A stretch of DNA of 64,000 nt from Micromonospora purpureochromogenes (GTDB lineage: Bacteria > Actinomycetota > Actinomycetes > Mycobacteriales > Micromonosporaceae). Below the pieces are notes generated by a model. The model had not been told where the DNA came from. It did no database searches and saw nothing but the letters and a program-made list of their open reading frames with translations. Made by a program: the position numbers and the translations under genes. The stretch is taken from contig NZ_LT607410.1 of assembly GCF_900091515.1 (NCBI RefSeq), positions 2,790,001 through 2,854,000 on the forward strand. The letters are read 5' to 3'. Positions 14,217 through 27,502 of this stretch are shown in pieces (position 1 is the stretch's first letter; every line of letters begins with the position of its first letter).

Positions 14217-14315
14217 GAGCGCGCGTTCACGGCTCTTCGGGGTGAGTCGGGAACGCACCGAAGTCCGGTAGTTGGGCACCGTGGAGCTGAGTGCAGGCGG
14301 GCCGGCTCGCCGTGC

Positions 14316-14428
14316 TGGGCCCGGCGTGGGCGGCGTGCCCCGCCCGCCGTGCTCGCATCGGCGATTCCGCTACCACACCGGACGGCTGGTGGTCAGGGCC
14401 GGGGAGTTGCGGACCCGGTCCTGACCCG
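14316..14428. repeat. Hairpin-bearing direct repeat, copy 1
   Basis: This segment matches 15365-15480 over about 113 bases, with best identity in ATTCCGCTACCAC and in the hairpin block. The hairpin (14391-14426) has 12-base arms starting GGTCAGG and ending CCTGACC with one mismatch and an internal GAGTTG loop. The two copies bracket the transpeptidase gene in the same orientation. Confidence 0.75.
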
Positions 14429-14587
14429 CCACCAGAACTGTTTACCCCGCCGCTCCCTCTTCTCCACCGGAAAATGAAAGCGCCGGCCGCGTCCTGCGCG
14501 TTACACGGACCCGCCGAAATTGCCGGACGAGATCCGTCACCATTTCCGGGACCCCGGAAAGTCGGCCGGGATGCGATCATCTGGCGA

Positions 14588-15289
14588 ATGGAGACGACAC
14601 CAGTCGCCGGTGGCCCCGTCGGGACGACGACGGGCCGCGCGAAGCCGATCCCGCCGCCCAACCGGGCCTCCCGGTTGACCACCCTGCCCGCCGCGACCAC
14701 CCAGGTCGTCGTCGTGACCGGTGACAGCTACAGCACCACCTACGCCACCCTGGAGACCTTTCACAAGGTCGGCGGCCACTGGGTGGCGGTCTCGGCGCCG
14801 CTGCCCGCCCGGATCGGTGCCAAGGGCTTCAGCGACAACCACCTGGAGGGCGTCGCCACCACCCCCACCGGGGTCTACTCGTTCGGCCCGACCATGTACG
14901 GCATCGGCGCCAACCCCGGCGTGCGCTACCCCTACCACCAGGTCGTGCAGGACGACTGGTGGAACGAGAACCCGAACTCGCCGGCGTACAACACGTTCCA
15001 GCACACCGCCACCAACCCGGGCGGCTACAGCGAGGCGCTGTGGACCGAGACGCCGGCGTACACCCACTTCGCGGTGATCACGTACAACATGCCGCCGAAC
15101 GTGGCCACGCCCGTCCCCGGCGCCGGCAGCGGGATCTTCCTGCACGAGTACAGCACCTCCGGCGGCAACGCCACCGCCGGCTGCGTGAGCATGTCCCACG
15201 CCAACCTGGTCTCGGTGCTGACCTGGCTCGACCCGGCCCGCTCGCCGCGCATCGTCATCAGCCCGGTGCAGAACCTCGGCCGGTACTAG
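14588..15289 (+). CDS. L,D-transpeptidase (YkuD-like) without visible signal peptide
   Basis: From the ATG at 14588 the protein has 233 residues. The YkuD-type catalytic region is IFLHEYSTSGGNATAGCVSM (residues about 180-199), with the active-site His and Cys; upstream are TPTGVYSFGPTMYGIG and HFAVITYN. Such enzymes form 3-3 peptidoglycan cross-links or attach proteins outside the membrane and are normally exported. Here the N-terminus (METTPVAGG, then proline/threonine-rich) lacks a hydrophobic core, and no upstream in-frame start supplies one. Either export is unconventional, the true start was altered, or the gene is a truncated relic. It lies between two copies of a hairpin repeat, suggesting local rearrangement. 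Confidence 0.78.
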   Translation: METTPVAGGPVGTTTGRAKPIPPPNRASRLTTLPAATTQVVVVTGDSYSTTYATLETFHKVGGHWVAVSAPLPARIGAKGFSDNHLEGVATTPTGVYSFGPTMYGIGANPGVRYPYHQVVQDDWWNENPNSPAYNTFQHTATNPGGYSEALWTETPAYTHFAVITYNMPPNVATPVPGAGSGIFLHEYSTSGGNATAGCVSMSHANLVSVLTWLDPARSPRIVISPVQNLGRY

Positions 15290-15605: not shown

Positions 15606-15653
15606 GCGATGTAGCTAGGCGATAGCAACCGAGGTATCCGCTCTTCCTAGCCT
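15606..15653 (+). promoter_or_regulatory. Multi-block promoter of the S1 protease gene
   Basis: Blocks GCGATGTA (15606), CGATAGC (15620), CCGA (15629), GTA (15634) and CCTAGC (15646) recur at the same offsets before the RHS gene. TAGCCT at 15648 is a plausible -10, which would place the transcript start within a few bases of the protease ATG, giving a leaderless message. The upstream blocks look like activator or alternative sigma factor contacts. Confidence 0.6.
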
Positions 15654-15660
15654 CGGCCGC

Positions 15661-16443
15661 ATGATTCGTTTGTCAGGTCTCTCCCGGCTCGCCCGGCTCG
15701 GCGCGGCGGTCGCCGTGCTCGGCGCCTCCACTCTGCTGAGCACTCCGGGCGCGGCCCAGGCCGTCGCGAACGGCACTACGGTCGCCGAGGGTCAGTACAC
15801 CTTCTCCACCAAGCTCACCATGACCAACATTCCGCGTTCGGACGGGACCGTCTACGACAGTGCCTGCTCGGGCGCGCTCGTCGCTCCGCAGTGGATCATC
15901 ACGGCGGGACACTGCTTTCACGACACGTCCGGCAACCGGGTCAGCGGCGCGGTTCCGTACGCGACCACCGCCACCGTCGGGCGCGCGGACCTGGCCGCTA
16001 CCACCGGGTACGTCATCGACGTCACCGAGGTGCGCCAAGCGGGCCGCCAGGACGTGGCGCTCGCGAAGCTCGCCACCCCCATCACCGACATCGCTCCACT
16101 GCCGGTGAGCGCCGTGGCACCGAAGACCGGCACCATTGTGCGGATGACCGGCTGGGGTGCCACCGGTTCGGTGAACCCGGCCCCGAGCCCGCTGCTGCAG
16201 ACCGGCCAGTTCAAGATCAACCGGGTCTCCGGTGCCTCCGTGATGGTGGTCGGCTATGCACCGAGCACCACCACCAGCGCCTGCCTGTGGGACTCCGGCG
16301 CGCCGTACTTCACTGAGAACGTGGACGGCAGCCAGACGCTGGTGTCCGTCGAGTCCGACGGCCCGGCCTGCCCGCACTCCCGTGAGGAGACCACCGAGCG
16401 GGTCGACTGGCTCGCCGACTGGATCCGTCAGACCACGGCCTGA
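15661..16443 (+). CDS. Secreted trypsin-like serine protease (S1 family)
   Basis: The 260-residue precursor has a signal peptide (basic start, hydrophobic core at about 12-28, AQA cleavage-type end near 35). The mature part is a chymotrypsin fold: WIITAGHC with catalytic His (about 83), QDVALAKL with Asp (about 137) and CLWDSGAPYF with Ser (about 213). The usual GDSGGP is WDSGAP here, so the oxyanion-hole flank is altered but the nucleophile remains. Cysteine pairs around the His and Ser motifs fit disulfides. It is predicted to be extracellular. No ribosome site is visible and the promoter abuts the ATG, suggesting leaderless translation. The next gene, RHS, carries the same promoter architecture. 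Confidence 0.92.
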   Translation: MIRLSGLSRLARLGAAVAVLGASTLLSTPGAAQAVANGTTVAEGQYTFSTKLTMTNIPRSDGTVYDSACSGALVAPQWIITAGHCFHDTSGNRVSGAVPYATTATVGRADLAATTGYVIDVTEVRQAGRQDVALAKLATPITDIAPLPVSAVAPKTGTIVRMTGWGATGSVNPAPSPLLQTGQFKINRVSGASVMVVGYAPSTTTSACLWDSGAPYFTENVDGSQTLVSVESDGPACPHSREETTERVDWLADWIRQTTA

Positions 16444-16561
16444 GCTGAGGTCCTGATCCAACGAAGTCTCGGTGGCGTCCGGTGATCCGGTCGCCACCGC
16501 TTCCTTTGGCCTGCCCGAGTACGTCGAAACCGACGCCCACCGCGCCCGCCGGCCGCAGCCG

Positions 16562-16609
16562 GCGATGTATCCCAACGATAGCGGCCGATGTACGCCGCAT
16601 CCCTAGCTT
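16562..16609 (+). promoter_or_regulatory. Multi-block promoter of the RHS gene
   Basis: GCGATGTA (16562), CGATAGC (16576), CCGA (16585), GTA (16590) and CCTAGC (16602) repeat the protease promoter blocks at identical spacing, the first and last being 40 bases apart in both. Flanking bases differ, arguing for selected sites rather than a recent duplication. The RHS start is about 40 bases beyond the -10-like TAGCTT. Confidence 0.6.
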
Positions 16610-16648
16610 GTTGCCCACATGTGAATACCTGACCTCGGAGGGTTACGG

Positions 16649-19600
16649 GTGAGACAGAGACTACGAGGGCCACTGATCGTGGCCTTGGTGCTGGCCCTGG
16701 TGGCCACGCTGGGCGGGATGGAAACGCTCCGCCAGTACCAACCGGACCCGGCGGCCACTGCCTCGGCCGGTGACGACGACATCCTGACCCGGCTCGGCAA
16801 GGCCGCCCGCGGCCTGGTCGGCGGCGGGGCCGCGAAGGCCCCGGCGGAGGCGGTCCGTGCCGGCCTGTACGTGGAGCAGAAGCTCCCGGCCGGTGTGCGG
16901 AAGAAGCCCGCGAAGCGGGTGAAGGAGTTGACCGGTCGTCGGTCGGCGACCACCCGGGTGTACAAGATGTCGGACGGCAGCCTGCAGGCGGAGGTGTCGG
17001 CGACGCCGCAGTTCTACCAGGACGCCAAGGGCACCTGGCAGCCGATCGACTCGACGGTCTCGCCGTCGAAGGCCGGCGGGTTCGCGGCGGCGAACACCAC
17101 GAACACCTTCACCAGCCGGTTCGGTGATTCGACCACGGCGCTGACCCGGTTCGAGTTGGACGGTCAGCAGGTCACCCTCGGCCTGGCCGGCGCGCCGCGG
17201 GCGCTCAAGCCGGTGCTGAACGGCCACACCGTCACCTACCCCGGCATCGCCGAGGGCGTGGACCTGGCGTACGACGTAACCGCCACCTCGCTGAAGGAGC
17301 GGCTGGTGCTGCGCGCCCCGTCCGCCGCGGCGGCGATGACGTTCACGCTCGACGCGGGCAAGCTGAAGGTCGCGCAGGGCAAGGGCGGTTCGATCGAGTT
17401 CCGGTCGCCGGTGGACAACCGGGTGCTGCTGGTGATGCCGGCGCCGTTCATGTACGACGCCAAGGCCGACAAGTCCTCGCCGTACGGCTTCGCCTACAGC
17501 ACCAAGGTGACGCAGACCCTGCGGGCCGACGGCGGCCGGTGGGCGATCGACGTGGCGGCCGACAAGGGCTGGCTGGGCGACCCCAAGCGGGTCTACCCGG
17601 TGACCGTCGACCCGACCATCAAGGTCCAGCCGGACAGCCAGGCTGGGCAGGACGCGATGGTCGTCTCCGACGGTCCGAGCTCCAACTACGGCACCGGCTG
17701 GAACCTGTCGGTTGGCACCACCGACCTGGCGGCGGCGCGCAGCCTGGTCAAGTTCAACCTGAGCTCGATCCCGGCGAACACCACGATCGACTCCGCCTCG
17801 CTGCAGATGTACTACGACACCACGCACACCACCAACGCGTACGACGTGCCGATCGAAGTCCGCGAGGTCATCACGGCCTGGGACGAGTCCACGGTCAACT
17901 GGACCCAGGTCAAGGACGCCATGGGCTCCGGCGCGGCGACCGTGGAGATGGTCGACGACACCGACACCGCCAAGGTCGCGGCGAAGGGCGTCTGGCCGCT
18001 ATCGACCAACAGCACCCTGAACAAGGACGCCGTCAAGCAGACTTACCTGTACAACAGGGACGACATTGCGGGGGACACCTACACCTGGGTGCCGGCCGTG
18101 CCGGAGGACGGCACGTACACGGTGGAGGCCCACTACCTTCCGGCCAACGACCGGACCGACAAGGCGCAGTACACCGTCACCCACGACGGCGGTGTCACCA
18201 CCCCCAAGCCGGTCAACCAGAAGCTGCCGGCCAACGCCGATTGGGCCAGCCTCGGCCAGTACCCGTTCAGGGCCGGCACCACCGGCCGGGTCATGCTCAG
18301 TGACGCCAACACCAACAGCACCACTTCGGTCATCGTCGACGCGGTGCGGCTGACCAAGTCCGGCGGCCTGATGCGGGCCAAGGAGGCCAACCTCTGGCAC
18401 TCCTTCGCGGCGACCAACTTGGTGCAAAAGTGGGTCAACTCAGGCGGCAACAACGGCTTCATGGTCAAGGCGGTCGACGAGGCCCGGCTCGGCCACGGCG
18501 GCCCCCGCTACCAGGCGGCGGAAAACGTCTACGGCGGCGAGACCGAGAACGCCCCGAAGCTGATTATCAACTACGGCAACCCCGGCCTGGTCGTCGACAC
18601 CCCGCGCACTCTCTACCCGACGGGCGCCGCGCTGCGCTGGTCGGCGTACGGCGGCGCGGACATCACCGAGTACCAGGTGCACCGGTCGACCACCCCGAAC
18701 TTCACCCCGACCGCGGCCACCCTGGTCGCCCCGGTGAGTAAGGCGGTCACGTCGTTCACCGACTCCACCGCCACCCCCACCGGGGCCAGCTCCACCGACC
18801 CGTACGGGCAGACCTACTACTACCAGGTGGCGGTCAAGACCAACGGCGGAACTGTCGTCCCGTCCACCGCGGTGACGGCCAAGCTGCCGAAATCCGGCCA
18901 GGTGGTGCAGACCATCCAGGCCGCCGCCGACGTGACCCTCTCCTCCCACCCCGACAAGCAGACCACCAACCTCAACACCTTGGATGGCAAGACGCAGCTG
19001 ATGGCGGGCAACAACTCCGTCGATTACAACTCCGCACGGTCGCTGCTGCGCTTCGACACCTCGTCCATCCCGGCGAATGCGAAGGTGCTGTCCGGATCGC
19101 TGAACCTCTGGGGCTTCAGCACCGTCATCGGCACCTCGCAGCAGTCGACCTACTCGGTGCACACCCTCAACAAGGCGTTCGACCCGACGGCCGCGACCTG
19201 GGTGAAGGCCAACAGCACCACCAACTGGACCACCGCCGGCGGTGACTACTCGGCCACGGCCGCCAGCTCGCTGGCCAACTTCGGTGTGGACGACGCGCCG
19301 CAGTGGCGGCGCTGGGCGGTCAAGGACTCCGTCCAGAACTGGGTCACCAACCCGACCGCCAACAAGGGCTTCCTGGTCAAGTACACCGACGAGGCAGGCC
19401 GGCTCAAGGGGCACAGCCTCTTCGCGTCCAGTGAGGGCACCGAGGCGCTGCGCCCGCAGCTGCAGGTCGTCTACACCCAGCCGGACGCGGTGCAAACCTA
19501 CTACGCGCCGTCCACCCCGTCGGTGATGACCTCCGACGGCACGTACAGCATCCCGGTCACCCTCGCCAACCCGACCGCCACCCCCTGGCTCAAAAGCGAG

Positions 19601-22600
19601 TGGGCGCTGACGTACAGCTGGACCCTGCCCAACGGCGACCCGGTCCCCACGGCCGGCACGCCCCTGAAGACGGCACTGCCCGTGGACGTCGCGCCGATCG
19701 GCTCGCCCACCGGCATCAGCAGCGTGGACGTCACCGCCCAGGTCAAGGCCCCGGCGACTAGCGCCGACGGCAACCGGCGCAACAACTACACCCTCAACTG
19801 GGAACTCAAGAAGACCGACGGCACCAAGCTGACCGGGATCGCCCCGCTGCCCCAGGACATCGCGGTCGAAGAGCCCACCTCCGACCAGCTCGGCCTGGAG
19901 AAGTACTACTCCTACGCGGGCAAGAACACCGGCGCGGGCGGCACGCTGATGAACAACCTGTTCGCCGGCAACACCGTCTGGTCGTACAACGCGTTCAACA
20001 ACCCGTCGCGGGGCCTGTCGACCTTCGTCCGGCTGGCGTACAACTCGCTGGACACCAGCGACTCGGTGGCCGGCTACGGCTGGTCGCTGCAGGCGTCGTC
20101 GATGATGCGCCTGGGCACGCCGCTGGACTTCCACCCCAACCCGAACCCGAGGAAGGTCACCTTCACCGACGGTGACGGCACCAGCCACCGGTTCATGCTG
20201 AATGACGCGACGGGGGAGTGGATCAGCCCGAAGGGTGTGCACCTCTACCTGGAGAAGGTCACCAGCCTCGACTGCAAGCCCAACACCGAGGAGCCGAAGG
20301 CCTGGCGGCTGACCAAGCCGGACCGGACGCAGTTCTACTACGACTGCGAGGGTTTCCTCACCAGCGTGGTGGACAACAACGAGAACGAGATGGTGTTCAC
20401 CTACGAGGAGCGCCGGTCGAACAACAAGCCGACCAAGTTCCTCCGGTACATCACCGACCCGGCCGGGCGGATCACCCTGACCATCGACTACTACGCCAAG
20501 GGCCAGGACTACACGTACATCGACGACACGGACTGGCTGCCGAGGTCCGGGACTAACCTCACCAACCCGCACATCATCGACCACGTCTCACAGATCACTG
20601 ACATCTCCGGGCGGAAGTTGACCTTCGCCTACACCGACAAGGGGCTGCTCGCCCAGCTCATCGACGGCGTCGGCTCCAGCGGCGAGTTGGGCCTGGAGAA
20701 GAAGTTCCAGTTCCGCTACGACGCCACGCAGGGGAACAAGAACGTCAAGCTGGTGCAGGTCACCGACCCACGGAATCACTCCACCAAGCTGGCGTACTAC
20801 TACCCCCAGACGGGCGACGACCCGAAGTGGCACTGGAGGACGAAGTCCTACGACGACCGGCACACCGACGAACGCCTCACCACGTTCACGTACGCCGACC
20901 CGGACGCGACGGACAACATCCTGACCACGGTCAGGGACGCCGAACTCCGCGAAACCAAGTACCTGATGGACGTCTTCGGCCGGCCGATCGAGACGACCAA
21001 CGCCAAGCAGCAGAAAACCACGCTGGGGTGGGATGACGACCACAACGTCACCACGCTCATCGAGGACAACGGCGCCACATCGACCTGGGTCTACGACGCC
21101 AAGACCGGCTACCCGACGCTGATCAAGGACGCCGAGGCGGTCGCCAACGGCACTCCGGGTACAGAGCTGAAGTACCAGTTCCAGCTGAACGGGTACGTCG
21201 CCGACCTGGTCGAGAAACTCAGCCCGGAACGGCGGAAGTGGACCTTCGGCTACGAGAACGACGGTGACCTCTCCTGGGTGGTCGACCCGAAGGGCAACAC
21301 CACGTCCGACCCGGAGGACTACAAGACCTCTTACACGTACGACGCGTTCGGGCAGATGCTGACGGCGACCGACGCCAACGGCAACACCACCAGGAACGAC
21401 CTCTTCGACGCGAACGGCTACCCGCAGAAGATCATCGACGCGAAGACGAAGGAGACGACGTTCGTCTACGACCTGCGCGGCCAGGTCACCAAGGTCACCG
21501 ACGCGTACGGCAAGGAAACCACGCAGACGTACGACACGTTCGGACGTCCGCGGGAGAACCGGGTCCCGAAGGACCAGAACGCCGGCGAGTTCATCGTCAC
21601 CCCGGCACCGACGTACGACGCCAACGACAACGTCCTGAAGTCCTTCGCCCCGAACGGCGCCTTCACCGAAGCCCACTACGACGCGGCCGACCAGGTGGAG
21701 TTCACGCTGGCACCGGTTGACGAGGAGGGCGACCCGCAGCGGAAGACCTCGTTCACCTACGACAAGGTCGGCAACCTGAAGACCGTCACCGAGCCGTGGG
21801 GCAACCTGACGCCCGAGGTGCCCGGGGACTATGTCACCACCAACCACTACGACGAGATCTACCAGCTCACCAGCGTCGTCAACGCCAAGAGCCAAACGAT
21901 CTCGTACGAGTACGACAACGTCGGCAACGTGCGGAAGGTCGTCGACCCGCGCAAGAACGCCACCAGCGCGACCGACGACTACACCACCGTCTACGAGCAC
22001 GACAAGGCCCACCGGGTCAAGAAGGTCACCGACGCCCTGGGCAAGTTCACCAGCACCACGTACGACCGCGATGGTGTCGTGAGAACCACGACCGACCAGC
22101 TCGGCAACACCACCGAGACCATCCCCGACCCGCGGGGCATGCCGGAGCAGGTCAAGGTGCCGCACAAGAACGACAACGGCACCATCACCTACCGCATCAC
22201 GCAGTACCAGTACGACGAGGTCGGCAACCGCACCAAGGTGACCAGCCCGCGGGGCGTGAACACGCCCGACGACCCGGACGACTTCGCCACGGTGACCGTC
22301 TACGACGAGCTGAACCGGGTAGAGGAGACCCGCACCGCCTACGACGAGCAGGACGCCCGTTACAAGACCGCGGACGTCACGACCTACGAGTACGACGACG
22401 TGGGCCGGCTGAAGATCCTCAGCTCGCCGCCGTCGGCGGGCGAGTCGGTCCGCAACGACACCCACTACACCTACTTCGACAACGGCTGGACGAAGACCAG
22501 CCGCGACCCGTGGGACATCCTGACCACCTACGACTACAACAAGCTGGGCGCCCAGACCGAGCGGACGCTCACCCCGGCCGGCGAGGATCCCGACGGGGGG

Positions 22601-25255
22601 TCGTCCAACCGGACGATGACGTGGTCGTACTTCCCCGACGGCAAGCTGGCGTCCCGCTCCGACAGCGGGGTGCCGGTCGGACGGCACGTGGTGCTGGTCG
22701 ACAACTCCGACTTCAACAACGTCACGACTGCCGGGACCTGGACGGCCGCGACCTCGGCGACGGGGAAGGTCGGCCCCAACTACGCCACCCGGCCGGCGGG
22801 GACCGGCACGAACACCTTCACCTGGAAGCTGAACGTGCCGCAGGCCGGCACGTACGAGGTGTTCGCCCGCTACCCGCAGGTCTCCGGTGCCGCGACCAAC
22901 GCGAAGTACACGGTCAGTCACGGCGGCGGCGACACGGAGAAGACGGTCAACCAGACCACCAACACCGGCACCTGGGTGAGCCTCGGCTCGTACAGCTTCA
23001 CCGAGGGCAACACCCACAAGGTGTCGCTGTCCGACCAGGCCAACGGCACCGTCGTCGCCGACGCGGTGAAGCTGGTCCGGGACAACACCGGCGAGGTCGA
23101 CGACGAGAGGGTCAACTACACCTACCGCTACGACCCGAACGGCAACCTCAAGAGGATCACCGACTCGTCGCCCAACGCCCGGGTCGACACGTACTCGGTC
23201 GACTACACCGAACTGAACCAGGTGCAGACGGTCACCGAGAGCAAGTCGGAGACGCCGACGAACACCACCACCTTCACCTACAACGAGAACAGCGCCCCGC
23301 GGACCACCAGCCACGAGCGGCAGTACGCCAGCTACGACTACGACGAGCGTGACCTGGTGTCGACGGTGATCAACGGCAAGTCCGCCGACGATCCGGACAA
23401 GAAGACCACCACCTTCACCTACACCGACCGGGCCGAAAAGCTGAAGGAGGTCAAGGGCAACGGCAACACCGTCGACTACACGTACTACCTCGACGGACTG
23501 CTGAAGAACCAGGTTGAGAAGAAGTCGAACGGGACGTTGGTGTCCGAGCACACCTTCACCTACGACCTGAACGGCAACCGCACACGGGACGCGGCGAAAA
23601 AGATGAACGCCGACAACAACGCGGCGTATCTCAACACCACCAGCGACTACACCTACGACCCTCGGGACCGCCTCGCTCAGCTGGTCAGGACGGGTGACGG
23701 CGCCGACACGGAAACCTATGTGCACGACGCCAACAACAACGTCATCAGCCAGACGATCAAGGATGCCACGACCACCTTCAACTACGACCGCAACCGGCTG
23801 CTGACCGCGACGACGGGTGGGGCGACGGCCTCGTACAACTACGACCCGTTCGGTCGGCAGGACACGGTGACCGCCGCAGGCGAGGTGATCGAGCGCAACG
23901 TCTACGACGGCTTCGACCACATCCTCGAGAACCGCAAGAAGAGCGGCACCGGCACGACCGTCACCGAGTACACCTACGACCCGCTGGACCGGACGACGAC
24001 GAAGACGACCGACGCCGGCGGGACGAAGGAGAAGACGACCACCTTCAACTACCTGGGCCTGTCGTCAGAGGTGCTGGACGAGGAGGTGGCCGACGAGCTC
24101 ACCAAGTCGTACCAGTACTCGCCCTGGGGCCAGCGGCTGTCGCAGGTCACCCACAAGGACGATGGGACCGAGGAGGAGGCGTACTACGGGTACAACCCGC
24201 ACACCGACGTCGAGCAGCTGACCGACGAGACCGGCAACACGAAGGCCACGTACGGCTACACCGCGTACGGCAAGGACAACGAGGCCGAGTTCACCGGTAT
24301 CGACAAGCCGGACGCCGCGGACCCGACCAAGGAGCCGTACAACGCCTACCGGTTCAACGCGAAGCGGTGGGACCAGGCCTCCGACTCGTACGACATGGGT
24401 TTCCGCGACTACAGTCCCAGCCTCAACCGCTTCCTCACCCGGGACAACTACAACGGTGCCATGGCCGAGTTCAGCCTCGGCCTTAGCCCGTGGACCGGCA
24501 ACCGCTACGCCTTCGGCGGCGGAAACCCGATCAGCATGATCGAAGTTGACGGCCACCGTCCGTGCGGTGACGATGCGTGCCGGCTGTACGAGAACGAAGC
24601 AGGGCAGGTGGTCGATCTTCGTTCTGCGTCACAGATCCCCGACGAGGACGAGCTGCCAGATGACGGTCCGTCCCCCAAGGAGATGTGCGGAAACGCGAGC
24701 CTCGACTCGTGCCTGGTCACGTTGCAGCAGCATGAGCAGGACAAGCGGAACCTCTGTAAGAACATGCCGCCGGACCGCTGCCTGATGGCGCTGGAAGCCG
24801 ATCGAAACAACCCGGGCTACACGCCGCCGGGAGAGACCTGGACGCTGCAGCCACATCCGGACATCGCTGGCATCCGTATGTATGGTCTCTGCGTCAATGG
24901 TAGTGTCGCGGGCTTTCTCGGCGCCGGGGAACAGGCCTGCATCGTGGGTGACGGCCAGGGTGTGGGTTGGACCTACTCACTGCAAGGGGATGTTGGCCCT
25001 AATGCTGGTTTCGGCGTGGGTATTAGCGGCGTGGCTTCCGATGGAGCTATCCACGACCAAATTGGCTCATCTGACTACTGGCAGGGCAGCCTGGGGAAAG
25101 TTGGGAATGTCCAGTATTCAGCTGGCCCCGGGGCTTGGAACCAACCAGTAAATACGGTCAGCGGTGGGGTTGGCATCGGGGTCGGGGGCGGCTATACCGA
25201 GGGTAAATCCGGGACCATTGGGGGCCGCTTGTTTGATTGGTGGTGGTGGGACTGA
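16649..25255 (+). CDS. Giant RHS-repeat surface protein with DNRLRE and golvesin-like domains and variable C-terminal tip
   Basis: The 2868-residue protein starts at a GTG with GGAGG nearby and a hydrophobic export segment (about 8-24). A DNRLRE domain spans about 320-640 but is interrupted at about 476-572 by a golvesin-like beta domain (DTYTWVPAVPEDGTYTVEAH). A second DNRLRE domain follows (about 752-944). Long RHS/YD repeats (YDxxGN variants) run from about 1080 to 2560 and are interrupted at about 2012-2145 by a second golvesin-like domain. The RHS core ends with DMGFRDYSPSLNRFLTRDNY and GNPISMIEVDGH (to about 2636). The last 230 residues form a variable tip: a Cys-rich acidic part, then a Gly-rich part ending WWWWD, with lower GC codons. 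It is likely a cell-surface polymorphic-toxin-type protein; the tip activity is unknown and no immunity gene follows. Confidence 0.9.
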   Translation: MRQRLRGPLIVALVLALVATLGGMETLRQYQPDPAATASAGDDDILTRLGKAARGLVGGGAAKAPAEAVRAGLYVEQKLPAGVRKKPAKRVKELTGRRSATTRVYKMSDGSLQAEVSATPQFYQDAKGTWQPIDSTVSPSKAGGFAAANTTNTFTSRFGDSTTALTRFELDGQQVTLGLAGAPRALKPVLNGHTVTYPGIAEGVDLAYDVTATSLKERLVLRAPSAAAAMTFTLDAGKLKVAQGKGGSIEFRSPVDNRVLLVMPAPFMYDAKADKSSPYGFAYSTKVTQTLRADGGRWAIDVAADKGWLGDPKRVYPVTVDPTIKVQPDSQAGQDAMVVSDGPSSNYGTGWNLSVGTTDLAAARSLVKFNLSSIPANTTIDSASLQMYYDTTHTTNAYDVPIEVREVITAWDESTVNWTQVKDAMGSGAATVEMVDDTDTAKVAAKGVWPLSTNSTLNKDAVKQTYLYNRDDIAGDTYTWVPAVPEDGTYTVEAHYLPANDRTDKAQYTVTHDGGVTTPKPVNQKLPANADWASLGQYPFRAGTTGRVMLSDANTNSTTSVIVDAVRLTKSGGLMRAKEANLWHSFAATNLVQKWVNSGGNNGFMVKAVDEARLGHGGPRYQAAENVYGGETENAPKLIINYGNPGLVVDTPRTLYPTGAALRWSAYGGADITEYQVHRSTTPNFTPTAATLVAPVSKAVTSFTDSTATPTGASSTDPYGQTYYYQVAVKTNGGTVVPSTAVTAKLPKSGQVVQTIQAAADVTLSSHPDKQTTNLNTLDGKTQLMAGNNSVDYNSARSLLRFDTSSIPANAKVLSGSLNLWGFSTVIGTSQQSTYSVHTLNKAFDPTAATWVKANSTTNWTTAGGDYSATAASSLANFGVDDAPQWRRWAVKDSVQNWVTNPTANKGFLVKYTDEAGRLKGHSLFASSEGTEALRPQLQVVYTQPDAVQTYYAPSTPSVMTSDGTYSIPVTLANPTATPWLKSEWALTYSWTLPNGDPVPTAGTPLKTALPVDVAPIGSPTGISSVDVTAQVKAPATSADGNRRNNYTLNWELKKTDGTKLTGIAPLPQDIAVEEPTSDQLGLEKYYSYAGKNTGAGGTLMNNLFAGNTVWSYNAFNNPSRGLSTFVRLAYNSLDTSDSVAGYGWSLQASSMMRLGTPLDFHPNPNPRKVTFTDGDGTSHRFMLNDATGEWISPKGVHLYLEKVTSLDCKPNTEEPKAWRLTKPDRTQFYYDCEGFLTSVVDNNENEMVFTYEERRSNNKPTKFLRYITDPAGRITLTIDYYAKGQDYTYIDDTDWLPRSGTNLTNPHIIDHVSQITDISGRKLTFAYTDKGLLAQLIDGVGSSGELGLEKKFQFRYDATQGNKNVKLVQVTDPRNHSTKLAYYYPQTGDDPKWHWRTKSYDDRHTDERLTTFTYADPDATDNILTTVRDAELRETKYLMDVFGRPIETTNAKQQKTTLGWDDDHNVTTLIEDNGATSTWVYDAKTGYPTLIKDAEAVANGTPGTELKYQFQLNGYVADLVEKLSPERRKWTFGYENDGDLSWVVDPKGNTTSDPEDYKTSYTYDAFGQMLTATDANGNTTRNDLFDANGYPQKIIDAKTKETTFVYDLRGQVTKVTDAYGKETTQTYDTFGRPRENRVPKDQNAGEFIVTPAPTYDANDNVLKSFAPNGAFTEAHYDAADQVEFTLAPVDEEGDPQRKTSFTYDKVGNLKTVTEPWGNLTPEVPGDYVTTNHYDEIYQLTSVVNAKSQTISYEYDNVGNVRKVVDPRKNATSATDDYTTVYEHDKAHRVKKVTDALGKFTSTTYDRDGVVRTTTDQLGNTTETIPDPRGMPEQVKVPHKNDNGTITYRITQYQYDEVGNRTKVTSPRGVNTPDDPDDFATVTVYDELNRVEETRTAYDEQDARYKTADVTTYEYDDVGRLKILSSPPSAGESVRNDTHYTYFDNGWTKTSRDPWDILTTYDYNKLGAQTERTLTPAGEDPDGGSSNRTMTWSYFPDGKLASRSDSGVPVGRHVVLVDNSDFNNVTTAGTWTAATSATGKVGPNYATRPAGTGTNTFTWKLNVPQAGTYEVFARYPQVSGAATNAKYTVSHGGGDTEKTVNQTTNTGTWVSLGSYSFTEGNTHKVSLSDQANGTVVADAVKLVRDNTGEVDDERVNYTYRYDPNGNLKRITDSSPNARVDTYSVDYTELNQVQTVTESKSETPTNTTTFTYNENSAPRTTSHERQYASYDYDERDLVSTVINGKSADDPDKKTTTFTYTDRAEKLKEVKGNGNTVDYTYYLDGLLKNQVEKKSNGTLVSEHTFTYDLNGNRTRDAAKKMNADNNAAYLNTTSDYTYDPRDRLAQLVRTGDGADTETYVHDANNNVISQTIKDATTTFNYDRNRLLTATTGGATASYNYDPFGRQDTVTAAGEVIERNVYDGFDHILENRKKSGTGTTVTEYTYDPLDRTTTKTTDAGGTKEKTTTFNYLGLSSEVLDEEVADELTKSYQYSPWGQRLSQVTHKDDGTEEEAYYGYNPHTDVEQLTDETGNTKATYGYTAYGKDNEAEFTGIDKPDAADPTKEPYNAYRFNAKRWDQASDSYDMGFRDYSPSLNRFLTRDNYNGAMAEFSLGLSPWTGNRYAFGGGNPISMIEVDGHRPCGDDACRLYENEAGQVVDLRSASQIPDEDELPDDGPSPKEMCGNASLDSCLVTLQQHEQDKRNLCKNMPPDRCLMALEADRNNPGYTPPGETWTLQPHPDIAGIRMYGLCVNGSVAGFLGAGEQACIVGDGQGVGWTYSLQGDVGPNAGFGVGISGVASDGAIHDQIGSSDYWQGSLGKVGNVQYSAGPGAWNQPVNTVSGGVGIGVGGGYTEGKSGTIGGRLFDWWWWD

Positions 25256-25269
25256 TGCACGTGCATCAG
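25252..25269. repeat. 18-bp perfect palindrome over the RHS stop codon
   Basis: CTGATGCACGTGCATCAG is a perfect palindrome containing the TGA stop. It could be a protein-binding site or a junction scar left by exchange of the RHS C-terminal tip. Confidence 0.5.
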
Positions 25270-25381
25270 CGGCATCGAATCCGAGGTTGGCGATGATGCT
25301 GACGTGACGAGCAATCGGGTGTCGGGTTCGACGGGCCGCCGGAGTTTGTTCAGCCGGCGCTGACGGACATCGGGGTCAAGG

Positions 25382-25417
25382 GTGGCCGCCGAGGTGAGTT
25401 TCCGCCTCGGCGGCCAC
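25382..25417 (+). terminator. Strong hairpin downstream of RHS gene
   Basis: Arms GTGGCCGCCGAGG (25382-25394) and CCTCGGCGGCCAC (25405-25417) pair perfectly over 13 bases around a 10-base loop. No T run follows, as is common in actinomycetes. It probably ends RHS transcription. Confidence 0.6.
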
Positions 25418-25622
25418 TGCTCAACAGAAGTATGGCGAGATCACCTGGCCGGAACCTGCGCGCTCGGCTCGGCCACTTCCTTCACAAGTAGTAAGTTTTC
25501 AATTCGGGAGCGAGGCGTTCAACGAATCCGGTCGGCGGAGCGCTCCAGTCAGAAACTTTGTTACATCGACACGCCGTTGTGACGCATTGAGACTCGTCAC
25601 CATTTTCATCCCTCGATGTGTC

Positions 25623-25652
25623 TTGCTGCTGTCCACAACAGGCACTTAGCCT
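25623..25652 (+). promoter_or_regulatory. Putative promoter of SARP gene
   Basis: TTGCTG and TAGCCT are separated by 18 bases, about 35 bases before the SARP ATG. The -10 hexamer is identical to the one before the S1 protease, but the upstream blocks are absent. Confidence 0.4.
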
Positions 25653-25687
25653 GAGCGCGCTCAAAGGCTCAACGGGGGAGCGGCAAC

Positions 25688-27502
25688 ATGCAGGTGGAGC
25701 TCAGGCTACTCGGCAGGATGCAACTGTTCGTCGAGGGTGCCGACGTCACGCCGGGGGCGGCGAAGCGGCGGGCCGTCCTCACCGCCCTGGCGCTCGGTGC
25801 CAACCGGCCGGTGTCGCTGAACCGTCTGTCCAAGGTGGCCTGGGGCGACGTGCCCCCGCCGTCCGCGGTGGCCAACCTGCGGTCGCACGCGATGGGGCTG
25901 CGCCGGGTGCTGGGTGACCGGTTGCTCGCCCGATCCAACGCCTACGAGCTGTGCCTGGCCGGCGAGGAATTGGACGTCGACCGGTTCCAGCGGCTGGCCA
26001 GCAAGGGCCGGGCCGACCTGGCGGCCGGGAAACACCGTGCGGCGGTCGCGACGCTGACCGCTGCACTCGATCTTTGGCGTGGACCGGCCGGGGACGGTCT
26101 GCCGCCGGGGCCGCTTCTGGACGGTCACTGGGCCAGCCTGGAGGAGCAGCGCCTCCAGGTGTTCGAGGAGTGGGCGCAGGCGCGTCTGGCCGTCGGGGAC
26201 CATGGCGACCTGCTCGGCGACCTGCGCCGCCATCTCGCCGCGCACCCGCTGCGCGAACGTGCCTGGGGTCAGTTGATGCTCGCCCTCTACCTGTGCGGGG
26301 ACGTGCCGGCGTGTCTGACCGCGTATCGGGAGGCTCGCGCGGCGCTCGACGAACACCTGGGCGTCGAACCGGGGGAGGAGCTCGCGGCGCTGCACCGGGC
26401 TGTGCTTGACCGCTCCCTCGAAACGACGCACACCGCAGGCACCTCGGCCGGGCCGGAGAGCGAGGGGCGCGGCAACACACCCCTCGTACCCAGGGAACTG
26501 CCGGCCAACCTGACCACCTTCGTCGGGCGTACCCAGGAGTTGGCCGACGTGGTCGCGGCCGTGCGTGGCAGGACGCCGGCCGCCGTGGTCGTGAGTGGGC
26601 CGGCAGGCAGTGGGAAGACGGCGCTTGCGGTACGCGCGGCGCACGCGGTGGCCACCGAGTTCCCGGACGGTCAGGTCTTCGTCGACCTCGGGCGCCGACC
26701 GTCGATGACGGCCGGCGAGGTACTGGGCCGGGTGCTGCGCGCACTCGGGGTGCCCGCCGCCGAGGTGCCGGGAGACGTGGACGAGAGGGCCGGGTGGTAC
26801 CGCTCCCGGGTCGCCGGCCGGCGCATGCTGCTGGTGGTCGACGGGGTGACCGGGGCCGAACAGGTGCGACCGCTCATTCCGGCCGGGCCCGGCCCGGCTC
26901 TGATCGTCGTCGGCCAGCGGCGGCTGCACGGGCTCGACGGCGTCACTCCGGTCGGGCTGCGTCCGCTGTCCGCCACCGGCGCGTGGGCGCTGCTCGCCGC
27001 GCACGTCGGGGCCGACCGGCTGGACGCGGAGCCCGCCGCCACCGCCGGGCTGATCCGGCTCTGCGCCGGCTCGGTGCTGGCCCTGCGAATCACCGCGTTG
27101 CGGTTGGCGAGCCACCCGAAGCTGGCGATCGGCGTCCTGATCGGGCAGGCGCGTGACGCGCAGGCCCGGCTGGACCTGCTGGCGTTCGGCGACCAGTCGG
27201 TGCGGGCGAGCCTGGCGGCTGGCGTCGCCGCGGTCCGCTCCGGGGACGAGGTGGCCGGCCGGATCCTCGCCCTGCTGGGGGAAACGCCCGATGCGGCAGC
27301 CGCCCCCGACCGTACGGCGGCGCGGCTCGGCGTCTCGGCCGAGCGCGTGTGGCGTGCGCTCGAGGACCTGGTGGACGCGCACCTCGTGTCCCGGGACGAG
27401 CGGGCCGGGTACCGGCTGCCCGCACTGGTCGACGACTACGTGGCCGAACTCGCGGCGACACCGTTGACGGCGGGCGGCCGGATGAGCCCGATGGCGGCGT
27501 GA
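25688..27502 (+). CDS. AfsR/SARP-family regulator with BTAD and NB-ARC-type ATPase domains
   Basis: The 604-residue protein has an OmpR-type winged helix (about 1-95: VELRLLGRMQLFVEG, then SHAMGLRRVLGDRLLAR), a bacterial transcriptional activation domain (about 97-240, ending EPGEELAALHRAVL) and a P-loop ATPase module opening with LPANLTTFVGRTQELADV (about 272) and Walker A SGPAGSGKTAL (about 301-311). AfsR proteins of about 990 residues carry a C-terminal TPR region; this one lacks it. SARPs activate secondary-metabolite or developmental genes through direct repeats. No biosynthetic cluster is in view; the nearest candidates are the RHS and protease genes upstream. GGGGGAG precedes the ATG. 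Confidence 0.9.
   Translation: MQVELRLLGRMQLFVEGADVTPGAAKRRAVLTALALGANRPVSLNRLSKVAWGDVPPPSAVANLRSHAMGLRRVLGDRLLARSNAYELCLAGEELDVDRFQRLASKGRADLAAGKHRAAVATLTAALDLWRGPAGDGLPPGPLLDGHWASLEEQRLQVFEEWAQARLAVGDHGDLLGDLRRHLAAHPLRERAWGQLMLALYLCGDVPACLTAYREARAALDEHLGVEPGEELAALHRAVLDRSLETTHTAGTSAGPESEGRGNTPLVPRELPANLTTFVGRTQELADVVAAVRGRTPAAVVVSGPAGSGKTALAVRAAHAVATEFPDGQVFVDLGRRPSMTAGEVLGRVLRALGVPAAEVPGDVDERAGWYRSRVAGRRMLLVVDGVTGAEQVRPLIPAGPGPALIVVGQRRLHGLDGVTPVGLRPLSATGAWALLAAHVGADRLDAEPAATAGLIRLCAGSVLALRITALRLASHPKLAIGVLIGQARDAQARLDLLAFGDQSVRASLAAGVAAVRSGDEVAGRILALLGETPDAAAAPDRTAARLGVSAERVWRALEDLVDAHLVSRDERAGYRLPALVDDYVAELAATPLTAGGRMSPMAA

Follow-up and report, generated by a model that had tools for sequence, protein, structure and literature searches.

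What reads the promoter that a protease gene and a giant RHS gene of Micromonospora purpureochromogenes appear to hold in common, and what might tie two such genes together? They are neighbours within the 64,000 nt window analysed here (NZ_LT607410.1, nt 2,790,001 – 2,854,000, forward strand), to which all coordinates below refer; the source genome is designated G000, and relative genomes and loci carry the prefixes G and L. The first gene (nt 15661 – 16443, + strand) encodes a trypsin-like serine protease of 260 aa (PF00089, E=2.2e-18), in which a signal-peptide-like N-terminus and the H, D and S of the trypsin-type triad can be recognised by inspection. The second (nt 16649 – 25255, + strand) encodes an RHS/YD-repeat protein of 2868 aa, a member of a polymorphic family, with matches to RHS_repeat, Golvesin_C, Disaggr_repeat, YD repeats and Rhs_assc_core. 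The ORFs and their identities are as given in the original prediction, which had also described five sequence blocks, at equal offsets (0, 14, 23, 28 and 40), before both genes. Both sets of coordinates were checked, and the blocks (of which the second to fifth are CGATAGC, CCGA, GTA and CCTAGC) do lie at nt 15606 – 15651 and 16562 – 16607 of the + strand. A pattern search of the 6,674,134-base genome returned exactly these two matches to the full pattern, and none to a reversed control; the hundreds of copies before unrelated genes that would have refuted the prediction did not appear.

The same prediction held that the arrangement cannot be chance, which is overstated for the pair alone. The protease and RHS 46-mers are identical at 31 of 46 bases, but the real window (73% GC) yields 1790 same-strand pairs of 46-mers that agree at 31 or more positions, and a single first-order random sequence of similar composition yields 156. 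Since equally good pairs are this common in the window, raw pairwise identity cannot exclude chance, and it was rejected as proof of a shared element. The evidence for the element is its placement directly before two adjacent genes together with its conservation in other genomes, and it is the conservation that carries the argument. The further statement that the pair is no simple recent duplication fits the data, as the flanks are unmatched (15 of the 60 bases upstream of the two promoters are identical) and both copies are present in M. chaiyaphumensis (G033) too, where protease and RHS genes are ordered as here and each promoter has the blocks at nearly equal spacing.

The core of the element is 46 bp in length. 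In the protease promoter it covers nt 15608 – 15653 (+ strand), with repeats GTAGC (15611 – 15615), ATAGC (15622 – 15626) and GTATC (15634 – 15638) and the predicted -10 hexamer TAGCCT (15648 – 15653). In the RHS promoter (nt 16564 – 16609, + strand) the repeats are GTATC (16567 – 16571), ATAGC (16578 – 16582) and GTACG (16590 – 16594), and the predicted -10 is TAGCTT (16604 – 16609). With the -10 hexamer placed at -12 to -7, transcription is predicted to start at about nt 15660 and 16616, respectively. The latter position is 33 bases before the GTG start codon of the RHS gene, and the leader holds a likely ribosome-binding site, GGAGGG (nt 16637 – 16642, + strand, by inspection), while the protease mRNA is probably leaderless, its ATG following the predicted start by about 1 nt.

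A search of 60 other genomes of the genus with the exact pattern minus its first base, allowing two mismatches, gave no match and suggested that the element is private to this genome, a view that was overturned by aligning the promoters of homologous RHS genes. Of 160 genus genomes, 30 have an RHS homologue at E≤1e-30. The upstream scan comprised 45 regions (15 protease loci and 30 RHS loci), of which 23 fit one ungapped motif: 21 of them belong to RHS loci, and the other two are protease regions, from G000 and G033. No fit was seen in 20 regions; for some of these 20 the match starts inside the gene, and the true promoter may fall beyond the scanned part. The RHS promoters of G087 and G155 (L082, L094) keep the repeats and have lost the -10 match, and are possibly silenced copies; both genomes also carry the SARP gene described below.

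A sequence-only model of the 46-bp motif (R1), built from 22 sequences, was then run on the 160 genus genomes, 26 of which were matched at E≤0.05 (33 hits, 31 of them at E≤0.01). The protease and RHS promoters of the window scored E=1.6e-6 and 2.3e-6, both sequences having been in the training set. At E≤0.01, 29 of the 31 hits lie before RHS genes of the family or their apparent remnants, and the other two before the proteases of G000 and M. chaiyaphumensis. Most matched sequences were training sequences; nine of the 33 hits were held out, and eight of these are at RHS genes or remnants, the remaining one (G107, E=0.04) being a partial match elsewhere. Common descent of the RHS promoters explains part of this conservation. 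The RHS genes behind the motif in G085 and G014:C314 look internally deleted and are counted as apparent remnants.

The motif is ungapped in 22 distinct promoters, with T5, T16, T28-A29, T41-A42 and T46 invariant. It consists of three TA-centred direct repeats, approximately (G/A)TA(G/T)C, at columns 4, 15 and 27, and of TANNNT at columns 41 – 46; the repeats are spaced by 11 and then 12 bp, and about 9 bp separate the last repeat from the -10. A three-unit score at one-turn spacing peaked at 16.6 for columns 4/15/27, a value reached in none of 2000 column permutations (permutation maximum 9.6), while the best single direct pair (5.98) was matched by 22 of 500. A palindromic site was also considered, as the best inverted pair scores slightly above the best direct pair (6.20 vs 5.98), but is held to be less likely than the coherent three-repeat array.

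Neither promoter of the window has a TTGACA-like -35. This, together with the fixed spacing to the predicted transcription start, would be in keeping with an ECF or other alternative sigma factor that reads the element directly and needs no activator. Such a factor is nevertheless very improbable, given that a housekeeping-type TANNNT -10 is invariant in the 22 sequences and that three helically phased repeats differ from a two-box sigma promoter. Where one dedicated regulator or sigma factor had been predicted, the regulator is well supported, on the strength of a motif of fixed spacing, its near confinement to the RHS family and a linked gene for a SARP activator (see below), but the special sigma factor is not favoured, as the element has a TANNNT -10 and its repeats upstream of this resemble the site of a SARP-type activator. 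According to passages in PMC10936776, SARP promoters have direct repeats 11 or 22 bp apart with the 3' repeat 8 bp from the -10, and a passage in PMC7040171 gives the same 8 bp. With its spacings of 11 and 12 bp and its 9-bp gap the element is a near, not an exact, fit to this rule, and is close to the published architecture.

The next gene downstream of the RHS gene (nt 25688 – 27502, + strand) encodes an AfsR-like SARP activator of 604 aa, with a winged helix/BTAD part and a NOD/STAND-like NTPase domain, and is the proposed regulator. The BTAD is well matched (PF03704, E=1.3e-43, residues 95 – 240), and the AfsR structure 8k60 aligns over residues 6 – 587 (E=6.9e-70). The N-terminal, OmpR-type winged helix aligns to solved structures from residue 6 (AfsR) or residue 3 (EmbR), the Pfam Trans_reg_C match being weak and below the cut-off (E=0.02); similarly, the NTPase domain is indicated by the AfsR alignment extending to residue 587, with AAA_16, NB-ARC and other models below their Pfam cut-offs. 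The NCBIfam AfsR model gives E=3.1e-91 and 306.8 bits against an equivalog cut-off of 1430, and the protein is too short for the TPR region of AfsR; judged from these comparisons it is a relative of AfsR and not its orthologue. Two residues of AfsR that contact bases, T88 and R92, are replaced by S66 and G70 in the alignment, so the DNA specificity of the SARP should differ from that of AfsR. R92 of AfsR contacts T-38 and T-27 (a passage in PMC10936776), and the invariant T16 and T28 of the element fall at -37 and -25 when the -10 is placed at -12.

It is likely, in our judgement, that the 46 bp common to the two genes form an operator-promoter of SARP type and that the linked SARP activates both the RHS and the protease gene. 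The three TA-centred repeats, about one helical turn apart, would span about -49 to -22, and the TANNNT -10 would be read by the housekeeping sigma factor. The SARP would bind side by side on the repeats, compensate for the missing -35 and so bring RNA polymerase to the two genes, with its NOD/STAND NTPase domain as the likely signal gate. The RHS protein would be a polymorphic toxin of interbacterial competition, and the protease a local recruit that is expressed with it. DNA binding, activation, the toxin role and the reason for co-expression are what we infer; the conservation of the promoter, its repeats, the protein families and the linkage of SARP and RHS genes are direct observations.

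As to that linkage, tblastn detected relatives of the SARP in 14 of the 20 RHS loci examined; at three further loci, two of them from G074 and one from G051, it is 6 – 8 kb beyond. In G091 and G020 it is carried on a contig other than that of the RHS gene, and G145 has no SARP relative at E≤1e-100. The SARP gene may lie upstream or downstream of the RHS gene, or be divergent from it (L256). Among the 160 genus genomes, 30 have the RHS and 36 the SARP (32 without four at about 45% identity). RHS and SARP occur together in 25 genomes (Fisher p=5e-16), motif and SARP in 23 (p=1.2e-15), and motif and RHS in 24 (p=8.5e-21), with phylogeny ignored in all three tests; within the 30 RHS genomes the association of motif and SARP has p=0.0026, and p=0.21 when three with distant RHS proteins are removed.

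Repeats that are direct and about 11 bp apart would equally suit regulators of OmpR type, and those of the element might be bound by another protein altogether (an OmpR-family response regulator, a BldC-like protein or a global factor), with the SARP controlling something else. Seven genomes are consistent with this, in that they hold a SARP (at least 57% identity) with neither this RHS family nor the motif, some of these SARPs lying at contig ends. Even so, another regulator seems quite unlikely: of the 130 genomes in which this RHS family is lacking, just two have a motif match (R1, E≤0.05), and one of the two matches lies at what looks like an RHS remnant, a distribution not in keeping with a global regulator; the gene linked to the RHS gene, in several orientations, is the SARP; and four RHS genomes without the motif (G145, G140, G152 and G080) are without the SARP too. 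Autoregulation of the SARP gene was considered as well and rejected, as no R1 match precedes it in the genome of the window.

The proposed control by the SARP may be compared with that exerted by AfsR at the afs box of the afsS promoter in Streptomyces coelicolor, where, in the account given in parts of PMC10936776, two SARP protomers sit side by side on the box and sigma region 4 rests on them and not in the -35. Both cases involve a protein of winged helix-BTAD-NOD type, one-turn direct repeats between -35 and -10, and a poor -35. Here, however, there are three repeats (11 and 12 bp) of other sequence, no room for a TPR region, and different contact residues, and in place of afsS the SARP would act on the genes for a giant RHS protein and a protease. 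Cluster-situated SARPs of antibiotic clusters (AfsR, ActII-ORF4, DnrI and others) are alike in having the activator gene near its target and comparable in their heptamer repeats, which frequently lie some 8 bp upstream of the -10 (a passage in PMC7040171), but they regulate metabolite clusters, whereas this large SARP lies beside a polymorphic toxin gene. The RHS/YD-repeat polymorphic toxins, as treated in parts of PMC3482391, have the same conserved delivery part and exchangeable C-terminal tips, but in the present case an activator gene and its promoter belong to the locus. The terms 'AfsR' and 'trypsin' have no occurrences in the portion of PMC3482391 that was searched, and SARP control of RHS or polymorphic toxins is the subject of no paper among the open-access full-text matches listed. 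These comparisons suggest that regulator and toxin are of known classes and that their pairing by way of a three-repeat site is new, an antibiotic-type switch having been adapted to control a protein weapon.

The RHS protein itself has the traits of polymorphic toxins, i.e. RHS/YD repeats, the associated core and a variable C-terminal tip. Over its residues 1101 – 2000, 22 loci with a nearly complete match are 62 – 76% identical to it, and L149 is 49% identical. The tip (241 aa, nt 24530 – 25252, + strand) follows a conserved junction and has no match to a toxin-domain family, or to any other family, in Pfam or NCBIfam. Tips behind an IS.IE.DGH-like junction were taken from 27 of 28 proteins, three of them second copies of the same locus; L087 was excluded because its junction pattern was unmatched. 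They are unrelated between many members, and some contain HINT-like regions by inspection. The 432 bp between the tip and the SARP gene (nt 25256 – 25687) contain no clear immunity gene, which is unusual for a polymorphic toxin locus, and only short frames are present, the longest being 83 and 66 aa on the + strand.

Where the SARP lies downstream (12 loci), its similarity follows that of the tip (Mantel rho 0.46, 0/1000 permutations) and that of the RHS N-terminus (rho 0.45, 12/1000), while tip and N-terminus are uncorrelated with each other (rho 0.11, 260/1000). The four loci with the SARP upstream show no trend of SARP similarity with either tip or N-terminus. Within the window, the tip and SARP (nt 24530 – 27502) are nearest to those of L085/L101 and the RHS N-terminus is nearest to that of M. 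chaiyaphumensis (L080). With nearest relatives that differ in this way, the locus is a mosaic, in which tip and SARP appear to have been exchanged together.

Relatives of the protease were searched in 121 of the 160 genus genomes and found in 15 at E≤1e-60, with at least 73% identity in five besides that of the window. Of these five, only G033 has an adjoining RHS gene and the motif. The other four orthologues (G084, G043, G052 and G061; 73 – 77% identical) all lack the motif, and their genomes have no RHS of this family at E≤1e-30; these four show that the protease family does not serve the RHS protein exclusively. The protease gene probably gained its promoter next to the RHS gene. Alternatively, the protease promoter might be a mere local copy of the RHS promoter, with no functional tie between the two proteins, and the restriction of the motif, among orthologues of at least 73% identity, to those beside an RHS gene (G000 and G033) agrees with this. 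We hold a mere copy to be possible but rather unlikely, since the repeats and the -10 are kept in both species while the intervening bases have diverged, which implies selection; moreover, it addresses the origin of the promoter and not its present function. The link proposed in the original prediction, cleavage or release of the RHS protein by the protease, draws on the adjacency of the genes, their common promoter and the trypsin-type triad. RHS processing of this kind is speculation and on balance unlikely, as the protease family occurs without RHS and, window aside, the protease was found in only one (L080, of G033) of 40 loci searched. Just upstream of the protease gene is a YkuD L,D-transpeptidase gene (nt 14291 – 15289), and related genes lie near the RHS gene in L080, L086 and L097.

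Across 354 genomes of the family, including the 160 of the genus, R1 matched 34, eight of them outside the genus, where three (G241, G203 and G173) reach E≤1e-3. In G241, from another genus, the motif is situated between the RHS gene and a divergently transcribed SARP gene (L256). In G203 and G173, which are Actinoplanes-type genomes, it precedes a gene for a DUF3558 lipoprotein (L257:15559 – 16143 and L258:15686 – 16246). The SARP gene follows the lipoprotein gene in G203, where the motif also recurs in weaker form (position-matrix score 23) before an RHS-like start that is followed by transposase-like sequence. The match in G173 has the same contig position as in the A. aureus genome. No SARP is present in the stretch of L258 examined (16.3 kb to one side and 3.6 kb to the other), and the A. 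aureus SARP sits on a contig of another length, so the motif apparently serves also where no SARP gene is close by. On the reading that we favour, the SARP would have recruited the lipoprotein gene as well in Actinoplanes. Weak R1 matches in G107, G239, G213, G252, G279 and G286 (E 0.007 – 0.05 per genome, 354 searched) were treated as chance; those in G239, G213, G252 and G286 have no RHS, SARP or protease match around them. A site in L185 (Paractinoplanes) with a position-matrix score of 29.9 was not counted, R1 being silent in that genome at E≤1.

We know of no account of how actinobacteria time the production of giant RHS toxins. A wider proposal, to which we would give an even chance, is that Micromonosporaceae carry an exchangeable weapon-control cassette, in which a STAND SARP is dedicated to polymorphic RHS toxins through the three-repeat promoter and is swapped along with the toxin tip. 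Capture of the promoter would recruit exported proteins, also in trans (the protease, the DUF3558 lipoprotein, perhaps a NucA/NucB-type nuclease), and the NTPase domain would sense a trigger of attack. If the SARP does control the RHS toxins, regulators of a class familiar from antibiotic production would also direct protein weapons; the regulon of these systems could then be predicted from sequence by way of the 46-bp signature, and the SARP gene would offer a direct test point for what turns RHS loci on.

Several SARP genes have other surroundings. In three of the seven genomes that have the SARP with neither this RHS family nor the motif (L130:11885 – 14236, L136:11211 – 13562 and L132:5746 – 8091) it adjoins a gene for a secreted protein of 782 – 784 aa. 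Upstream of this gene are GTATC-N4-ATATAG-like repeats with no matching -10, and the copy in L130, the only one scanned, has FN3 and NucA/NucB nuclease matches. In L137 (G058) the RHS gene has the promoter, the SARP matches in two fragments and the RHS gene in part, and the pair seems to be decaying together. In L135 the SARP adjoins a different giant RHS protein, which has ricin-B lectin and pretoxin-HINT domains.
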